NCBI RefSeq assembly: GCF_013166655.1
Contig: NZ_JABKCA010000021.1
Coordinates: 1 to 64,000 of the forward strand
Length of the DNA stretch: 64,000 bases
Direction of reading: 5' to 3'
From: Lentimicrobium sp. L6
GTDB lineage: Bacteria > Bacteroidota > Bacteroidia > Bacteroidales > UBA12170
This document shows, one piece after another, positions 53,362 through 61,475 of the stretch (position 1 is the first letter of the stretch; every line of letters starts with the position of its first letter). A program made the position numbers and the translations under genes. Below the pieces are notes generated by a model that had not been told where the DNA came from, did no database searches, and saw only the letters and a program-made list of their open reading frames with translations.

Positions 53362-53966
53362 ATTCAAAGATAAATAAAGAATTAGCTTTCGAGCATTGAA
53401 ACCCTTAACTTCTTTGGGCACACACATTCAAGCTTTTTTTTAATTCCAACCAACTGAAATACTGATCTTTAAAAATTTGTATTTAGCAATTAGTATCTAT
53501 TCCTCTTACGTGAACCTAAAAATGAATTTCATGGAATTTTCAAACTTTTCTAAGCAAACATGCCCTAGTTTTACCACTAAGGGCTTAAAAGTCAACTCAA
53601 AGAACACGAAATCAAGCTCTTACTTTTATTAACTTTTAGCTACCCGTATTTACCTTTATGCTTGAGTTTTAAGATCAAATTTTGTTGTTTTTCTATATAT
53701 GCAACCTTGGTTTATCTGATGGGCTTGCTCTGCTTATTTTCTTAGAGAAGACTAATCCTCAATTCGTCCATCCTTTGTTTTTCGTAAATATAATATTTTG
53801 CAAACTTAGCTTGGGATAATCCATAGGGCTTTATTATTTACCTCTAAAAATCAGGAATTAAATCAACTCACCATCCAATTGTTTAAAAAACTCCAAATAT
53901 TCCTTAAAAAATAAAGCCTTCCAATAAAAATTGGTACTTTTGCAAAAATGCTAATTTAGAATTATT
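53362..53966. other. Long intergenic region upstream of lpdA
   Basis: These 605 bp are AT-rich and hold no gene I can support. There is a small hairpin near 53562-53584 (GCCCTAG/CTAAGGGC with one bulge) and the lpdA promoter element at the right end. The distance suggests regulatory sequence or decayed DNA. Confidence 0.5.
53935..53942 (+). promoter_or_regulatory. Putative -7 element for lpdA
   Basis: TACTTTTG (TAnnTTTG form) ends 24 bp before the lpdA ATG. Confidence 0.55.
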
Positions 53967-55358
53967 ATGAATTACGATATTATAGTTTTAGGTAGTGGTC
54001 CTGGCGGATACGTTGCTGCCATCAGAGCTACTCAATTAGGAAAAAAAGTAGCTGTTATTGAAAAAGCCGAATTAGGTGGAATATGCCTCAACTGGGGATG
54101 TATTCCAACTAAAGCCTTATTAAAAAGTGCTGAGGTTTATAATTATGCCAAGCATGCTGGTGATTATGGCGTAAAGGTTTCAGGTGAGATTGAAGCTGAT
54201 TTTGATGCCATAGTAAAAAGAAGCCGTGGCGTTGCTGAAGGCATGAGTAAGGGAATTCAATTTCTTTTCAAAAAGAATAAAGTAGATTTAATTTCTGGTT
54301 TTGGAAAACTAAAACCAGGTAAAAAAATAGAAGTAACCGATGCGGATGGAAAAGTCACTGAATACAGTGCCGAAAACATCATCATTGCCACTGGTGCTCG
54401 TTCACGCGAATTACCAAACCTTCCTCAAGATGGAAATAAGATTATCGGTTATAGAAAAGCCATGACTTTAGACAAAAAACCAGAATCTATGGTTGTTGTG
54501 GGTTCTGGAGCCATTGGTTCTGAATTTGCTCATTTTTATAATAGCATAGGTACCAAGGTTACTTTAGTTGAGTTTATGGACAATATCGTTCCAGTGGAAG
54601 ATATAGACGTGAGTAAGCAATTGGGCAGAAGCTTCAAAAAAGCCGGTATTAAAGTGATGGTGAAAAGTGAAGTTTTAAGCGTAGATACTACTGGTGACAA
54701 ATGCCAGGTTTTAATTAAGACCAAAAAAGGTGAAGAAACTGTTGAAGCTGATATCGTTCTTTCTGCTGTTGGAATTCAAACCAATATTGAAGGAATCGGA
54801 TTAGAGGAGGTTGGAATTGATGTAGATCGCGGTAAAGTATTGGTTGACGAGTTTTACAAGACCAATGTAGAAGGATATTATGCCATTGGCGATATCGTTC
54901 CTGGTCCTGCTTTGGCTCATACTGCAAGTCACGAAGGAATCATCTGCGTTGAAAAAATCGCAGGTCATCATCCCACACCATTAGATTATGGAAATAATCC
55001 AGGTTGTACCTATACTCAGCCAGAAATCGCCAGTGTTGGTTTAACAGAAGCACAAGCCAAAGAAGCCGGACACGAAATCAAAGTGGGTAAATTCCCATTC
55101 TCTGCTAGTGGAAAAGCCAGTGCTGCTGGACATAAAGACGGTTTTGTAAAAGTAATCTTCGATGCCAAATATGGTGAGTGGTTAGGTTGCCACATGATTG
55201 GTGATCACGTTACTGAGATGATTGCGGAAGCTGTAGTAGCTCGTAAACTAGAAACTACAGGACGTGAAATCATTGAAGCAGTTCACCCCCATCCTACTAT
55301 GTCAGAAGCTATTATGGAAGCGGTTGCGGATGCTTATGGTGAAGTGATTCATATATAG
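53967..55358 (+). CDS. lpdA: Dihydrolipoamide dehydrogenase (E3), chimeric 3' end
   Basis: The 463-aa protein has the FAD motif GSGPGGYVAAIRA, the redox disulfide GGICLNWGCIPTKAL, the NAD-binding GSGAIGSEFAHFY and the interface His-Glu dyad in HPHPTMSEAIME. It re-oxidises lipoyl groups of 2-oxoacid dehydrogenases or the glycine cleavage system. No partner E1/E2 genes are adjacent. The last 59 codons occur again 4,484 bp downstream; because an integrase gene follows directly, the present 3' end is probably element-derived and the distant one is the original. The protein sequence is unaffected. Confidence 0.95.
   Translation: MNYDIIVLGSGPGGYVAAIRATQLGKKVAVIEKAELGGICLNWGCIPTKALLKSAEVYNYAKHAGDYGVKVSGEIEADFDAIVKRSRGVAEGMSKGIQFLFKKNKVDLISGFGKLKPGKKIEVTDADGKVTEYSAENIIIATGARSRELPNLPQDGNKIIGYRKAMTLDKKPESMVVVGSGAIGSEFAHFYNSIGTKVTLVEFMDNIVPVEDIDVSKQLGRSFKKAGIKVMVKSEVLSVDTTGDKCQVLIKTKKGEETVEADIVLSAVGIQTNIEGIGLEEVGIDVDRGKVLVDEFYKTNVEGYYAIGDIVPGPALAHTASHEGIICVEKIAGHHPTPLDYGNNPGCTYTQPEIASVGLTEAQAKEAGHEIKVGKFPFSASGKASAAGHKDGFVKVIFDAKYGEWLGCHMIGDHVTEMIAEAVVARKLETTGREIIEAVHPHPTMSEAIMEAVADAYGEVIHI
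55178..55358 (+). repeat. Left attachment repeat (attL), 3' end of lpdA
   Basis: This is the left copy of the 181-bp direct repeat. It starts at GTGGTTAGGTTG and ends at the lpdA stop (TAG here, TAA in the far copy). It encodes the E3 dimer-interface segment with the catalytic His-Glu dyad. Confidence 0.9.
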
Positions 55359-55384
55359 ATAGCCGATATAAAAAGATTAATCAG

Positions 55385-55420
55385 AGAGTGAATGTTTGCG
55401 AAAATGTTTGCTCTTTTTTT
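55385..55420 (+). terminator. Element-borne terminator behind lpdA
   Basis: A 13-bp stem (AGAGTGAATGTTT with AAATGTTTGCTCT, four G-U pairs) closes on a GCGA tetraloop of the GNRA class and runs into seven Ts. It lies 26 bp after the lpdA stop and ahead of the integrase gene, so it ends lpdA transcription and isolates the integrase from it. Confidence 0.8.
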
Positions 55421-55430
55421 GTGCATTTAT

Positions 55431-55459
55431 TTTTCAATCGAAAGCTATCCGCTTATAAT
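55431..55459 (+). promoter_or_regulatory. Putative sigma70-like promoter of the integrase gene
   Basis: TATAAT (55454-55459) lies 17 bp after TTTTCA (55431-55436) and ends 8 bp before the ATG. The leader would be extremely short. It differs from the TAnnTTTG elements seen elsewhere in the window. Confidence 0.45.
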
Positions 55460-55467
55460 ACCTAATT

Positions 55468-56637
55468 ATGAGTGTAAGTTTAAAAATTGTACTTAGAAAA
55501 AAGAATACGAAAGACCAAACCCATCCTGTAAAGCTAAGAGTTACAAACCTTAGAAAATCAAATTATATTGCTTTAGGTATTCATTTAAGCGATAAGGATT
55601 TTAATAAGTTAATCAAGGGCAAAAAGTTACCAGAGGACATAAAGAAACTAAGAGCAAAAGTTATTAATGCTGAAAACAAAGCTCAGAAGATAATTGAAGA
55701 ATTACCAGAGTATTCCTTTAAAGAGTTTAAAAGCCTTTTTCAAGGCATACCAATCCAGAAGGTCAATAAGAGCTTAGTACATCTATTCAATAGTTATATT
55801 GCTAGATTAGAAGCAGAACATAGAAAAGTTAGTGCTAATAATTACAAATCTACACTAAAGCACATTAAAGATTTTATTGTTGATATTGAAATAAATAAAA
55901 TTGATAAAAAACTCCTTGGAGGTTTTAAAAACTATCTATTAGGTACTGGACTAAGTTCTACGACTGCAAGAATTTATCTAATTACTTTCAAAGCTGTTAT
56001 CAATGCAAATAATGAATTAATAGACACAAACCCATTTATTGGATTCCAATTACCCAAATCAAGGGATAATAAGCGAGCAATACCCATGCAAGACTTAAAA
56101 AAACTCCTTGAGTATAATTTTCAGAATCAAAAGCATCAATTATATATTGACTTATTCAGGTTTAGTTTTTACTGTGCAGGTATTAATATTAAAGATATTC
56201 TGTTACTAAAAGAATCTAATATCAATGGTGATTATATTGAATTTATTAGAGAAAAGACTAAACACAAATCGCCAAAACTTATTAGAGTTTTTATCTTAGA
56301 CGAAGCTCGAAATATCATAAGGAAGTATAATTCAGAAAGTTCAGCTTATCTATTTCCTGTACTCTCCAATGAAGATTCTGATTATTTATTTAAAACTGTA
56401 AACAATACTGTATTAAATGTAAATAGAAGGCTTAAAAAAGCTTGTAATGACATTGGAATACAAAGAGTAATGACATACCATGCACGACATACCTATGCAA
56501 CAACATTAATGAATAAAGGCATTAGCATTGCTTTCATTAGTTCTAGTCTTGGCCATGCGAACATAGCAACTACGCAACACTATTTAGGCAACTTTACAGA
56601 TAAACAAATGGAAGCAAACATGAAGAAACTTATATAG
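55468..56637 (+). CDS. Tyrosine recombinase / integrase (Bacteroidota type)
   Basis: The 389-aa protein has an N-terminal arm-binding domain (SLKIVLRKKNTKDQTHPVKL; YIALGIHLSDKDFNKL), a SAM-like core-binding domain (about 105-205) and a C-terminal catalytic domain. Visible catalytic residues are Arg340 in YHARHTYAT, His363 in SLGHANI and nucleophile Tyr372 in TTQHYLG. The first catalytic Arg is replaced by Asn (CAGINIKDIL), and the box II His position is Tyr337; both are seen in Bacteroidota integrases such as the IntDOT type. It sits just inside attL, the standard place for an integrase acting on the adjacent site. Confidence 0.93.
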   Translation: MSVSLKIVLRKKNTKDQTHPVKLRVTNLRKSNYIALGIHLSDKDFNKLIKGKKLPEDIKKLRAKVINAENKAQKIIEELPEYSFKEFKSLFQGIPIQKVNKSLVHLFNSYIARLEAEHRKVSANNYKSTLKHIKDFIVDIEINKIDKKLLGGFKNYLLGTGLSSTTARIYLITFKAVINANNELIDTNPFIGFQLPKSRDNKRAIPMQDLKKLLEYNFQNQKHQLYIDLFRFSFYCAGINIKDILLLKESNINGDYIEFIREKTKHKSPKLIRVFILDEARNIIRKYNSESSAYLFPVLSNEDSDYLFKTVNNTVLNVNRRLKKACNDIGIQRVMTYHARHTYATTLMNKGISIAFISSSLGHANIATTQHYLGNFTDKQMEANMKKLI

Positions 56638-57207
56638 CCCATAGCAGGCTTTTTAAGCACCCTAGAGGCTCTTTTTTACACCAAATAAACACGTTTTAAA
56701 ACAGCATGAAAGACCTTTAAAAACAGTTCTTTGAAATCATGAAATTAATAGATTGTAAAATATTTTAATGCAATTAGCTTGCTTATATTTTAATTCAGAA
56801 AAGCCGATATAAAGAAGTTAATTGGTTTAATCTTGAGTATGTTTTACATAAAAATACAGTCTGTTTTGAAAAATAATTCAAAAAAACACTTGACAAACCT
56901 CCTTTTATGTCGTATATTGCCATAACAGTGTAGTTCAACTATCCTTCCAAAGTAAAATAAATAAAGAAGAATTAAGAGAGAATAAAGAGATTACAGCAAA
57001 GCAAAAAGAAAGTCAGGATAGTATAACTTGGATATCATCAAGAGACTATAGATTTTCTGCTATATCGGCTTCTTTAAAAGCACTTCAAAGCACCATTCTA
57101 AAAGTTTCAATAATATTCAAGTTTCTGAGTACACTAGAGTTCATTATTTTGAATTCTAAAGATTTAGGGAGTGTATTTTACCTCCCTTTGATTAAAAACT
57201 AAAATAT
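56638..57207. other. Non-coding region with promoter and long leader in the element
   Basis: These 570 bp separate the integrase from the next gene. They hold two AGCCGATATA copies (56802 plus, 57061 minus), a strong sigma70-like promoter (56889-56917), and in the predicted leader an 8-bp inverted repeat ACTATCCT/AGGATAGT (56937-56944, 57015-57022) enclosing 70 nt. No short gene with a good start was seen. Confidence 0.6.
56889..56917 (+). promoter_or_regulatory. Strong sigma70-consensus promoter in the element
   Basis: TTGACA (56889-56894), a 17-bp spacer and TATATT (56912-56917). This is a near-perfect match to the E. coli-type consensus, unusual for Bacteroidota. Transcription would start near 56925, leaving a leader of about 280 nt before the ATG at 57208. 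Confidence 0.6.
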
Positions 57208-58245
57208 ATGGTACACAATGAAGAAATTAGAGAAGAGTTTTTGCAAGAAGTCAACAAATCAAATCAATACTCTAGTAATTATGAATTTGAGGGGATAATA
57301 GATGAAGAAACATATAAAGGTTTAAATTGGATTTATAATGTTAGAATAGACTTAAACACTAAGTCATCAAATATTAAATATGAGATGAATTTACAAGATG
57401 AAATAAACAACCTAGAATCTGAAACCCAAACAAGCTTTTATCAGTCTGTTTTTAGAAAGTATAAAGGCAATATTGATAGCAATATAGAATACATAATATA
57501 TAGATTAAAGCATCCATACAAAACATTTCAGCTGCAATTTGATTTGCGTAGATTTAACGAAAAGAATGCTTTAGGACTTTTAAGAGGTCATCTGGTAAGA
57601 TTTATATTACTCAATCCCAAATTGAGAAATTGGGAGATTTTATACAAGGTTTTTCATCTGGCTGTTTCAAGGATTAATAAGTACTCAGAAGCATCAATAG
57701 GCAGACCCGATATAGTTCGAACCTCACTTGTAGAACAAGCCTTAAATGATACCCAATGGTTAGGAGACGAATTGGATATTGTAAATGAACAGATTAAAAT
57801 TGAAATGGAGAAACACCAAAAAAAAGTGGATAGTCAATGGGTTAGTACCTTTGATGAAATTGAATATACAGTTGATATAACAGCAGATTATTACAGAAGA
57901 CTAAGCTTTGCAAACGACAATTACTGGTACACTGGTTTATATGGTCCAACAAATAGAGAGATATGTTTCAATGTTGAAAACAAATATAAGAGCATAACAA
58001 AATATGATGATATCAATGAGTCTGTTGATTCCTTAATTAATGATGGTGTATTCGTAAGCTATGAAACAATTAAGGAGAAGCTTAATGGCAGAGGGGAAAG
58101 ACAAATAAGAGAAGTTATTCATGACAGGAAGAAAGAAATTGTTATGCATAACAGAAACAAATTTGGAATTGTACAATACAAGACATATTTGAAGAGAAAT
58201 GCAGAACATCTGATGAATGATGAAATTTTTACCTCACCTGCTTAA
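57208..58245 (+). CDS. Unrecognised 345-aa element protein, possible C-terminal DNA-binding region
   Basis: I do not recognise this protein. It has no signal peptide or membrane segment and is probably cytoplasmic. The N-terminal 110 residues are charged and helical/strand mixed; the middle (LRGHLVRFILLNPKLRNWEI, RPDIVRTSLVEQALNDTQWL) is helical; the C-terminal part (GVFVSYETIKEKLNGRGERQ, IREVIHDRKKEIVMHNRNK) looks like a winged or helix-turn-helix DNA-binding segment. It is the largest cargo gene and might be a replication initiator, excision factor or regulator. It has its own promoter upstream and an arm-type motif on both sides. Confidence 0.7.
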   Translation: MVHNEEIREEFLQEVNKSNQYSSNYEFEGIIDEETYKGLNWIYNVRIDLNTKSSNIKYEMNLQDEINNLESETQTSFYQSVFRKYKGNIDSNIEYIIYRLKHPYKTFQLQFDLRRFNEKNALGLLRGHLVRFILLNPKLRNWEILYKVFHLAVSRINKYSEASIGRPDIVRTSLVEQALNDTQWLGDELDIVNEQIKIEMEKHQKKVDSQWVSTFDEIEYTVDITADYYRRLSFANDNYWYTGLYGPTNREICFNVENKYKSITKYDDINESVDSLINDGVFVSYETIKEKLNGRGERQIREVIHDRKKEIVMHNRNKFGIVQYKTYLKRNAEHLMNDEIFTSPA

Positions 58246-58589
58246 CAGAACTGTTTGTCTAGGAGGGGTAAAAACTTTCTGTCTTCATTGATTAAGATTC
58301 AGTTACAAAATATTTATTTGTAAGATAAATGTCAAAAGTAACCAAAAAAACATTGTTAATTTTTCATCTATATCGGCTTTTAAAATGTTCTTAATGAATA
58401 TCAATACAAAATATTAAAAGTCATTTAAGAATTGAGAAATTAAACTATGGTTTAGAAAAAGCCGCTAGAAAAGAAAGTTTGCGTTTTGGTAATATCGTTG
58501 CACCAGCAATAGCAACAATTAAATACAACTAATAATTAATGATTAGAGCATCTTATTTTAGCAATATTATAGGTTTTTAAGGGAAATTA
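58246..58589. other. Non-coding region between convergent element genes
   Basis: This 344-bp gap lies between the convergent 345-aa and 164-aa genes. It contains one AGCCGATATA copy (minus, 58369-58378) and the short open fragment described separately. No clear terminator hairpin was seen. Confidence 0.5.
58398..58532 (+). pseudogene. Possible remnant of a small protein (C-terminal fragment)
   Basis: Between a TGA at 58395 and a TAA at 58530 one frame reads ...EKLNYGLEKAARKESLRFG and then NIVAPAIATIKYN, with a protein-like composition that its AT-rich surroundings lack. There is no ATG, so it looks like the tail of a lost gene. I cannot assign the parent family. Confidence 0.3.
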
Positions 58590-59084
58590 CTACACGTAAA
58601 ACAAAAGTCTTTTGTATAAAACTCTTTCGTAAATATCGTAAAGGTTAGGTTTTAGTATAGTATCCTTAGAGTTGTAATATGTATCTTTATCGATAGAAAA
58701 ATCAAGCTTATAACTCATTTTAATATTACCACCATCATATACATTTATACTAAGTTCATTATTACAATAATCATACACATCAGATACGGAGTCATTATAA
58801 TAAGAAAGATCTCTATCGATTATTAACTCCTCTCCATTAATAGGAATAAATAAAATGCAAATATATTCAACTTCAGAATCATTAAAGCTTCTCAATTTGG
58901 GATAATTTGGTCCAAAAACATTATTTTCTTTCTCGGTTAAATTTTTGTTATCTATTGGATATATTGTACTATACATTGCATTACTTTTGTGAAGAAACAT
59001 TTTTCTCAGAATCGTTGTGTTAAATTTATTATTCAATCGATTTTCAAAATTATCAAGCAAAGCTTTTATTACATCGTTCTCCAT
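58590..59084 (-). CDS. Unrecognised 164-aa element protein
   Basis: I do not recognise this protein. It begins with a helix (VIKALLDNFENRLNNKF) followed by mixed strands with many Tyr, Asn and Asp residues (EVEYICILFIPING, YNDSVSDVYDYCNNELSINV, MSYKLDFSIDKDTYY) and ends YKRLLFYV. It has no signal peptide, membrane helix or catalytic motif I can see. It faces the 345-aa gene and lies on the attR side, where small elements often carry accessory cargo such as defence or regulatory genes; that role is a guess from position only. Confidence 0.55.
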   Translation of the reverse strand: MENDVIKALLDNFENRLNNKFNTTILRKMFLHKSNAMYSTIYPIDNKNLTEKENNVFGPNYPKLRSFNDSEVEYICILFIPINGEELIIDRDLSYYNDSVSDVYDYCNNELSINVYDGGNIKMSYKLDFSIDKDTYYNSKDTILKPNLYDIYERVLYKRLLFYV

Positions 59085-59661
59085 TTTCTTTATTTTACTA
59101 ATAGTTCAGATAACTAAATTCGATAAACATTATTGCTAAAATAATAATAATCCTTCACATAACGTCTATAGATTTTATACTTTTCTTATAAAAAGGTTTT
59201 CTTTTTAGGATAAATAAATATTCAAGCTTCTAAAACTAATGATAAATGTAATAGACAGCCACTCATTCCCCCTATAGCGGCCTTTATCAACATAAACCAA
59301 TAACCATTCTTATATATATAATGACATTTTTTCAAAATATTTTCAATTTTTTTATATGAGAATCATAGGCTTAGCCACCCAATAACAACGCCCCCCATTG
59401 GGTATTTCCTTCGAATACCCCCGTCGTAAAGCATGATTATATCTTTCCATATACTGTTATCAAAACACTTAAAAAAGGGCTTAAACATTAGTTAACAAAC
59501 CCTTACTCCTACTACAATTACATAGATATATCTTTGGTAAAGTGAAGGATATTTTGTATCTTTATTCTTTAATAACCAAGCGGTTAAAAGTTCTTTTGTT
59601 TGTCAAATTGTTTGCACTTAGAAATTCAAACATTTACTAAACACCTGATTTTATATTAGTT
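59085..59661. other. Non-coding region at the right end of the element
   Basis: This 577-bp stretch lies between the 164-aa gene and attR. It is AT-rich apart from a GC island with two small overlapping stems, CCCAAT/ATTGGG (59378-59383, 59397-59402) and GGGTATT/AATACCC (59400-59406, 59414-59420). No gene is supported. It would be next to the crossover site in the circular form and may hold integrase or excision-factor sites. Confidence 0.5.
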
Positions 59662-59842
59662 GTGGTTAGGTTGTCACATGATTGGTGATCACGTTACTGA
59701 GATGATTGCGGAAGCTGTAGTAGCTCGTAAACTAGAAACTACAGGACGTGAAATCATTGAAGCAGTTCACCCCCATCCTACTATGTCAGAAGCTATTATG
59801 GAAGCGGTTGCGGATGCTTATGGTGAAGTGATTCATATTTAA
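59662..59842 (+). pseudogene. lpdA: Displaced original 3' end of lpdA (attR)
   Basis: The last 59 codons of lpdA are repeated here without a promoter, start or upstream domains. It differs from the functional 3' end by one synonymous base (59674) and two bases around the final codon and stop (59839, 59842). It is followed by a good terminator, which supports it being the original gene end cut off by insertion. Confidence 0.88.
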
Positions 59843-59867
59843 GCCTTAAGCTTTTAAAAATATTTTG

Positions 59868-59900
59868 GAGGATGTCATTAATTTGATATCCTCTTTTTTT
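59868..59900 (+). terminator. Original lpdA terminator, now stranded
   Basis: GAGGATGTCA/TGATATCCTC (one G-U pair), 10-bp stem with a 6-nt loop and seven Ts, 26 bp after the displaced lpdA stop. Confidence 0.85.
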
Positions 59901-59986
59901 ATTCTAAAAAATCTACCCCTGACGTAAAAGAAAAACTATTTTCAATATATTTACGGTTTAAATCCCAAATAAAAATTGCCTCATTC

Positions 59987-60625
59987 ATGAAATACTTTAA
60001 CTACCTTTATTTTATATCATTGTTCGTCTTGTTCTCTTGTGATCCATGTGAAAAAGCCGAGTGCCCCAATCCATTTGCCGATAGAGATATACAGTGGCTT
60101 CCCTATTCTGAAGGTGATAAGATTAATATGGTTGAAGTGAATTCTTCTTCTACTACCACTTATAATATAAGTTATGCTAAGAATGGAAAAAGTACAATCT
60201 CAGACGATTCTTCTCCCTATTGCGAAAGTTCATGTTTTTATATGTTTAATGTTCGTACGCGCGGTGAATTTCCTGATGAAGAGAATGAATTCACTTTCGA
60301 GATGGTTAAAACCATGAATGGATTTGATTTTAATATCTTTTTTGGTTCAGTTTGTTATTACTTCTTAGGAACGGGAAGTAATACAGATAGAATATTTAAT
60401 TTAGAAGAAGCAATTCATCTAGATTCATTGTCTATAAATGGTCAATATATAAAAGATGTATATAAATACACCACATATCCAATGCAAGAAACAGTAGCTG
60501 AAACCTATATGCATCGAGGCTTAGGCTTGGTTAAAATAAAATATAGAAATGGTCAAGATTTTGAATTGGTGGAACATATAAAATCGAATAAATTGTTCTA
60601 TGGGCAGACCGACCCGAATATCTAA
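59987..60625 (+). CDS. Hypothetical lipoprotein with an altered C-terminus
   Basis: The 212-aa protein has a lipoprotein signal (YFISLFVLFSC, Cys19) followed by CDPCEKAECPNPF, a Cys-rich start, and a beta-rich domain. No family is recognised. The last seven codons (GQTDPNI) come from a menD fragment read out of frame, so the original 3' end was probably lost when that fragment joined at about 60604. It may still be expressed. Confidence 0.65.
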   Translation: MKYFNYLYFISLFVLFSCDPCEKAECPNPFADRDIQWLPYSEGDKINMVEVNSSSTTTYNISYAKNGKSTISDDSSPYCESSCFYMFNVRTRGEFPDEENEFTFEMVKTMNGFDFNIFFGSVCYYFLGTGSNTDRIFNLEEAIHLDSLSINGQYIKDVYKYTTYPMQETVAETYMHRGLGLVKIKYRNGQDFELVEHIKSNKLFYGQTDPNI

Positions 60626-61029
60626 TAGATCAAGGAGATGGCCAAGCTATTGTTCAGCAAAACGTTTATCAAAATTTCATTAGAAAATCTGTACAACTAC
60701 CTGAAGATATTCAATCTAAAAAGGATGAAAAAAACTATCAAAGATTAGTTTTTGAAACCATGAAGCGGGTCAAAACCCAGTTCAAGGGCCTGTACATATT
60801 AACGTTCCTCCTGATTAACTCATTTACGATTTAAAAGAAAAAGAGAAGCATGCTCTTATCCCATTTAAGAAATCAAAGATAGATTCAGCATTATCAAAAG
60901 AGAAAAAACTAGATCTTCTCAACAAATGGAATCAAGCTGAAAAAAATTAATCATTATCGGACAACACCTCCCTGATCCAGAGTTCAAGCAACTACTAAAG
61001 AAACTATCTATAGAAAAAACAAGAAATAT
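60604..61029 (+). pseudogene. menD: Internal fragment of menD
   Basis: The frame starting at 60604 reads ADRPEYLIDQGDGQAIVQQ, the thiamine-diphosphate-domain motif of MenD (SEPHCHC synthase of menaquinone synthesis). After a 1-nt loss near 60770 it continues in the next frame as VQGPVHINVPPD, meets an in-frame TAA, then LIYDLKEKEKHALIPF to EFKQLLKKLSIEK. About 140 of roughly 550 codons remain, with neither end. The order matches MenD from the end of its first domain into the central domain. Confidence 0.8.
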
Positions 61030-61270: not shown

Positions 61271-61475
61271 ATTAGCAGGGCAAACGCATACTTTTAATTT
61301 GTCCACAGATTTCCGCAAATTAACACAGATTGCAAACAAAGTTCAGCTTTGCTATACTCTCTTTGTAGAAATAATCCGTGAAAACTTGTGGAATTAGTGG
61401 ACAGCTTTTTCTTTTTTTAATTTAATCGTTGATTTTTTAATTAAAACTGAAAGTATGAGTTTGCCCTGGGCTAAT
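61271..61475. repeat. MITE-like inverted-repeat element, 205 bp
   Basis: Terminal inverted repeats (61271-61294 and 61450-61475; 23 of 24 bases match with one 2-nt gap) share ATTAGC and AGGGCAAAC plus CATACTTT. Inside are nested inverted repeats: TGTCCAC/GTGGACA (61300-61306, 61397-61403) leading into diverged CCACAGATT-type arms, and ACAAAG/CTTTGT. The whole would fold into one long hairpin. No coding frame. No target-site duplication is clear. Confidence 0.65.

Follow-up and report, generated by a model that had tools for sequence, protein, structure and literature searches.

Why does the draft genome of Lentimicrobium sp. L6 (here G000; 5.14 Mb in 195 contigs) hold a second copy of the 3' end of lpdA, the gene for dihydrolipoyl dehydrogenase, with a tyrosine recombinase gene between the two copies? 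The locus lies in a 64,000-nt stretch of DNA that was analyzed at its full length (the window). The answer that best fits our results is that a small integrative element of 4,484 bp has very probably inserted in lpdA, and that its attachment site (attP) carries a replacement for the lpdA 3' end.

Duplication of the lpdA 3' end around a tyrosine recombinase gene

A position-wise comparison of the two direct copies (55178-55358 and 59662-59842, both on the + strand) gave an offset of 4,484 bp and identity at 178 of the 181 positions, the mismatches falling at 55190 (C/T), 55355 (A/T) and 55358 (G/A); a repeat finder reported 180 nt at 99% identity with a spacing of 4484. This is what an earlier, sequence-only reading of the window had described, a 181-bp repeat of the lpdA 3' end with three mismatches on either side of a tyrosine recombinase gene. 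A match of this length and identity is not due to chance.

The left copy (attL block) completes a full-length lpdA reading frame (53967-55358, + strand) of 463 amino acids, which scores 559 bits against TIGR01350 (cut-off 409). Beginning with the last base of codon 404, the repeat block spans codons 405-463 and the stop codon; these 59 codons include, as had been claimed, the catalytic dyad of LpdA, His442 and Glu447 of HPTMSE. The right copy (attR block) opens without an ATG, and a terminator scan placed a hairpin terminator downstream of it (59867-59894, + strand; z −6.2, matched by 0 of 200 shuffles), as expected if this copy were the orphan 3' end of the original lpdA with its native terminator, displaced by the insertion. 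Apart from one full lpdA and this extra tail, G000 has four LpdA matches that are only 29-33% identical. It is formally correct that integration replaces active-site sequence, but the LpdA protein now encoded is identical to the pre-insertion form, as made from the right copy.

Three genes lie between the copies, as the sequence-only reading had it. The first, int (55468-56637, + strand), starts 110 bp past the lpdA stop codon in the same direction and encodes an IntCTnDOT-like tyrosine recombinase of 389 amino acids. Its frame is intact, and it matches PF17293, PF13102 and PF00589, above or at their cut-offs, corresponding to arm-binding, core-binding and catalytic domains of the Bacteroidota type. 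In the alignment, Asn240 stands, as assigned by eye, at the position of the first catalytic Arg, and the other residues expected at catalytic positions, His338, Arg340, His363 and Tyr372, are present. The other two genes, orf2 and orf3, are described further below. The G+C content of the element is 28.6%, compared with 34.3% and 35.1% in its flanks.

An empty lpdA site in the closest relative

The lpdA tail (E ≤ 1e-12) was found in 9 of the 11 genomes of the genus sample, this being the only genus returned in a family-level search, and it was present twice only in G000. The closest relative among these genomes, G002, is 89.5% identical across 1,463 bp. It has a single lpdA and, about 160 bp past the stop codon, a 47-bp stretch covering the native terminator (91% identical). 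Judged from this alignment, the lpdA locus of G002 is an empty site. The earlier reading had asked for such a comparison, and the arrangement it named as damaging, one fixed and diverged in relatives that have no empty site, is not what we found.

The duplication is also rare outside the genus. The tail was found in 269 of 393 genomes of the order, tallied from per-genome counts with a 60-aa query that duplicates far shorter than itself might escape, and it occurred twice in two of them, G000 and G139; the second match in G139 is an open frame that by its coordinates reaches the contig end. As a separate observation, a region downstream of lpdA in G002 (L024, G002:C49, 2643-4670) holds an IS91-type transposase gene (PF04986, PF14319) beside a small tyrosine recombinase gene.

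A sister element at a POT-family transporter gene

G000 contains a second element of this kind, on contig C40 (L027, 4248-9554), at a gene for a POT-family transporter. In alignments, its integrase is 41% and its orf2 product 37% identical to those of the lpdA element. It is flanked by a 132-bp direct repeat, 100% identical and 5,175 bp apart from start to start, which consists of the first 22 bp of the POT gene and 110 bp upstream with TTG-N19-TATTTTTG, a pattern that presumably fits the Bacteroidota promoter consensus. Because the repeat holds the start of the POT gene and a promoter-like region, the sister element would restore the 5' end and promoter of its target, whereas the lpdA element would restore a 3' end. 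In G010 the two genes flanking the POT site are adjacent, that is, the site is empty, whereas G002 has another element at this site, with a related integrase gene beside the same POT gene and other open reading frames (ORFs) of 1060 and 230 aa (L025, G002:C194, 5116-8029). Two further ORFs of the sister element gave domain matches: one (L027 4695-5195, − strand) to PF14373, “Superinfection immunity protein” (E 9.1e-12), and to SHOCT, the other (L027 5277-5645) to SHOCT.

Element ends and candidate crossover core

Both ends of the lpdA element carry features that could serve an integrase. A doubled TGTTTG motif lies just inside each end, at 55393-55410 and 59597-59614, in the same orientation (+) and with 12-bp spacing. 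These are the only two occurrences of TGTTTG-N(5-8)-TGTTTG on either strand of the window, a rarity that is no independent test as the motif was picked after inspection of the ends. These putative arm sites may be bound by the arm domains of the integrase.

The gene-internal edges of the two repeats were compared by eye. They read TTAGGTTGTC in lpdA (the left copy having C at 55190) and TTAGGGTGTC in the POT gene, so that a candidate core TTAGGTTG[C/T]C can be placed at 55182-55191 (+ strand), resembling TTAGGGTGTC at the corresponding edge of the sister repeat. Since a near-identical string stands at both edges, the sequence common to the two targets, TTAGG[T/G]TGTC, is likely the crossover core. 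Each rescue segment would then begin at the core and reach to the functional boundary of its gene, which is the stop codon for lpdA and the promoter for the POT gene.

The right ends of the two elements resemble each other. When the 260 bp preceding the right repeat were aligned, the score was 64, against a maximum of 35 in 300 simple shuffles, and of nine end-versus-end comparisons only this one beat all 300. The shared stretch (59528-59608, + strand, in the lpdA element) contains the pattern TTTG-N20-TATCTTTA (59533-59564), which points outward in both elements. The window holds 25 such patterns, and the telling point is only that this one has the same place in both elements; in the 11 genus genomes, the right-end pattern was found in these two elements only.

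Probable integration with restoration of the target gene, and its alternatives

Taken together, the empty site in G002, an arm-like motif inside each end and a sister element that follows this logic at another gene make integration with restoration of lpdA, as the sequence-only reading had proposed, the best explanation of the locus; the similar right ends and the lower G+C content also speak for it. The IntCTnDOT-like recombinase would have crossed the attP of the element with lpdA near codons 404-409, the putative crossover point. The attP would have supplied 59 codons and the stop, rebuilding lpdA on the integrase side, and the original lpdA tail with its terminator would have been shifted to the far end of the element.

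Several observations weigh against this explanation. Alignment of the two left ends gave no significant similarity, its score being reached by 48 of 300 shuffles; no excisionase gene was recognized in the element; and about 160 additional, unexplained bp separate lpdA from its terminator in G002. In addition, Int is without the first catalytic Arg, although this is common in its subgroup: in the available part of one account, part of the IntCTnDOT subgroup is described as lacking it (PMC8138268).

The alternative that survives best shares the origin of the element with our explanation and differs in its present activity only. In this version the integration was real, but excision has ceased and the element, once mobile, is now stuck and on its way to being lost. 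That no excisionase was recognized fits such a history, as do orf2 and orf3, which have no assigned function. However, int still has an open frame that encodes four of the residues expected, and the free right copy has barely decayed. We regard a stuck element as a possibility of lesser weight.

A second alternative is homologous, Campbell-type integration, in which a circle with an lpdA fragment would have recombined via the shared 181 bp and the integrase gene would be a passenger. Near-identical copies could indeed serve homologous recombination, but the repeat has its edge where the stop codon and arm-like motifs lie beside the integrase gene, and the sister element is laid out alike at a different gene, with a comparable core string. 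Campbell-type integration is therefore very unlikely. An assembly artefact, conceivable in a fragmented draft of so many contigs, is less credible still, as three bases distinguish the copies, the right copy has the native terminator behind it, the flanks fit the logic of the empty site and the sister element with the same logic is on another contig.

Possible control of int by promoter switching

If the element has integrated as proposed, int would follow lpdA, separated from it by a weak stem-loop instead of the displaced native terminator. This stem-loop with a T-run (55383-55416, + strand; −13.4 kcal/mol, z −2.4, 5 of 200 shuffles as good), a possible weak terminator or attenuator in the int leader, was not accepted by the terminator scan. 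In the circular form, the promoter-like TTTG-N20-TATCTTTA of the right end would face int. We infer from this arrangement that int may be controlled by promoter switching between the two states. In the sister element the host gene is directed away from int, and only the circle half of such a model could apply. A scan for sigma-70 promoters was not used, its 39 hits being near the shuffle level (30.4 ± 4.5).

Age and origin of the rescue segments

The left and right lpdA copies are closer to each other (178/181) than to G002, with which the left copy shares 164 and the right copy 163 of the 181 positions; the left segment is about as divergent from G002 as the remaining lpdA (1,082/1,211). The rescue segment would therefore come from the own lineage of the strain, or the copies have been homogenized by gene conversion.

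At the POT gene, G000 and G002 share 131 of the 132 positions of the repeat, as read from the mismatch list. The whole POT-region alignment (1,861 bp) is 88.8% identical, with 76-97% in 66-bp steps from 9674 on, and the high identity continues for about 130 bp into the POT gene. Because it extends into the gene, it is no clean sign of a rescue segment moving between species.

A more speculative reading is that a small element family switches target genes by capturing fresh host DNA. It is based on integrases that are 41% identical and yet have rescue segments 98-100% identical to the local partner copy, and on the match between the type of rescue and the need of the target: the lpdA segment brings a coding tail and stop codon, the POT segment a promoter and start. 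We consider capture rather doubtful, the main competing explanation being gene conversion between the copies.

Other genes and motifs of the element

The second gene, orf2 (57208-58245, + strand), encodes 345 amino acids and the third, orf3 (58590-59084, − strand), 164; apart from the sister-element homolog of orf2, neither has a relative among the sequences searched. No match to Pfam or NCBIfam reached a curated cut-off for either of them. In PHROGs, int matched integrase families only, orf2 none, and orf3 gave two weak matches to families of unknown function. Among the three genes, no phage structural, packaging or replication gene was found with PHROGs and no relaxase or transfer gene with Pfam or NCBIfam; no phage record matches orf2 or orf3, and a search for defence and phage functions of these two gave no convincing result. 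Outside G000, orf2 was absent from the 393 order genomes, from 365 genomes of the phylum (a set that may overlap with the order sample) and from phage, plasmid and viral-contig records, and orf3 was present in 1 of 395 phylum genomes, G000 itself. A structure prediction for the orf2 product, made from two sequences, was poor (mean predicted local distance difference test score, pLDDT, of 41).

Four copies of the motif AGCCGATATA lie in the element around int and orf2, two per strand (55361-55370 and 56802 on +, 57061 and 58369 on −), and none in the remaining window; none of 2,000 simulated sequences had more than one. These motifs are possible binding sites of the orf2 product or of a regulator. 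The stretch 56781-57207 was rejected as a structured origin, its DNA folding being no better than that of shuffles (z −0.45; 33 of 100 as good), and no Rfam family reached its gathering score within 53500-61000. Downstream of the element there is a 25-nt inverted repeat (61276-61300 and 61444-61468), 88% complementary, with arms 143 nt apart.

Target sites of related integrases

A scan of genome contigs for the integrase gave five loci, at most 35% identical, and lpdA was not found in four of them (all but L034). Viral contigs held one integrase relative (26%) and no match to orf2, the lpdA tail or the right-end pattern; plasmids held integrases in six records (≤32% identical) and no match to orf2 or to the element DNA.

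Target sites were inspected for 14 of 17 integrase relatives, that is, all except L028, L034 and L045. In three of them, sequence on the integrase side is clearly repeated 5-6 kb downstream: the sister element L027 at the POT gene (132 bp, 100%), L047 at a tRNA-Ala gene (112 bp, 90%) and L032 at a tRNA-Val gene (46 bp, 100%). L049 has a 52-bp repeat on the opposite side, for which we offer no interpretation. A tRNA or tRNA-like sequence lies near the integrase gene in L026 and L046, with no resolved partner, and L031 and L051 have local tandem-like repeats only; in L051 (G225:C13) these are about 395 bp long, 96-99% identical over long stretches and just upstream of the integrase gene. L025, L030, L033, L048, L050 and L052 showed no clear repeat.

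Comparison with known systems

That an integrating element restores its target gene is textbook knowledge, and e14 of Escherichia coli is a near twin of the lpdA element. According to the sections available of the e14 reports, it is inserted in icd after codon 362, with a 3' duplication of 163-165 bp, 12 exchanges and 54 residues supplied by the element (PMC11148124, PMC6379469). Both elements carry their integrase, are inserted toward the 3' end of a gene of central metabolism, supply its C-terminus and leave an orphan tail at the far end. In contrast, e14 is a 15.2-kb cryptic prophage of a proteobacterium, whereas the lpdA element has 4.5 kb, no phage genes found and another target gene, and its copies differ at 3 nt against the 12 of e14. 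The sequence-only reading was right that a protein-coding metabolic gene is used here, but it overstated how unusual this is, given e14 in icd and the 43.4% of 1,757,053 islands that TIGER/Islander places in coding sequences (PMC12424338). Identity blocks of up to ~250 bp are described for sites well inside a gene, the attP then bearing the replacement, in the available part of a further study (PMC10111431).

The recombinase resembles those of the IntCTnDOT subgroup (CTnDOT, NBU1) in being of the Bacteroidota type, in its Arm-DNA-bind_5 domain and in the missing first catalytic Arg, as in part of the subgroup, a likeness drawn from domains and residues. Unlike CTnDOT and NBU1, the lpdA element has no recognized conjugation or mobilization gene. 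For ICEKp1, the available sections report by experiment a displaced terminator, a host promoter used when integrated, an attenuating leader and a 3'-end promoter used when excised (PMC13023037). Within what these sections cover, the lpdA element is like ICEKp1 and ICEclc in its displaced host terminator, an int co-directional with and following the target, a leader stem-loop and a promoter or promoter-like sequence at the far end that would face int in the circle. It differs in that switching is experimental there and deduced here, that the target there is a tRNA gene and that no conjugation genes are recognized here. Helper-embedded phage-inducible chromosomal islands (PICIs), as far as the accessible text describes them, carry a doubled motif in the same orientation on either side of attP, for which binding by the integrase arm domain is one proposal (PMC10111431). 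The lpdA element shares the doubled, co-oriented motif on each side of attP, but the islands in that text have another motif and other hosts, and disrupt prophage genes without a replacement sequence.

What is new here, as far as searched, is lpdA as a target, together with an orphan element family, its small size and a pair of 3' and 5' rescues in one genome. No literature report of lpdA as an integration site was found, in a search that did not cover the TIGER island table, a possible source of such sites. With this element, lpdA, encoding the E3 of 2-oxoacid dehydrogenases, joins the genes used as integration sites, and a very small, so far orphan element family is documented. Two related integrases in the same genome, one at the 3' end of a gene and the other at a promoter and 5' end, could help to test how integrases switch targets and how an attP acquires its rescue segment. 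If fresh host DNA were indeed captured, the integrases would long predate their rescue segments, and the pair would show retargeting in progress.

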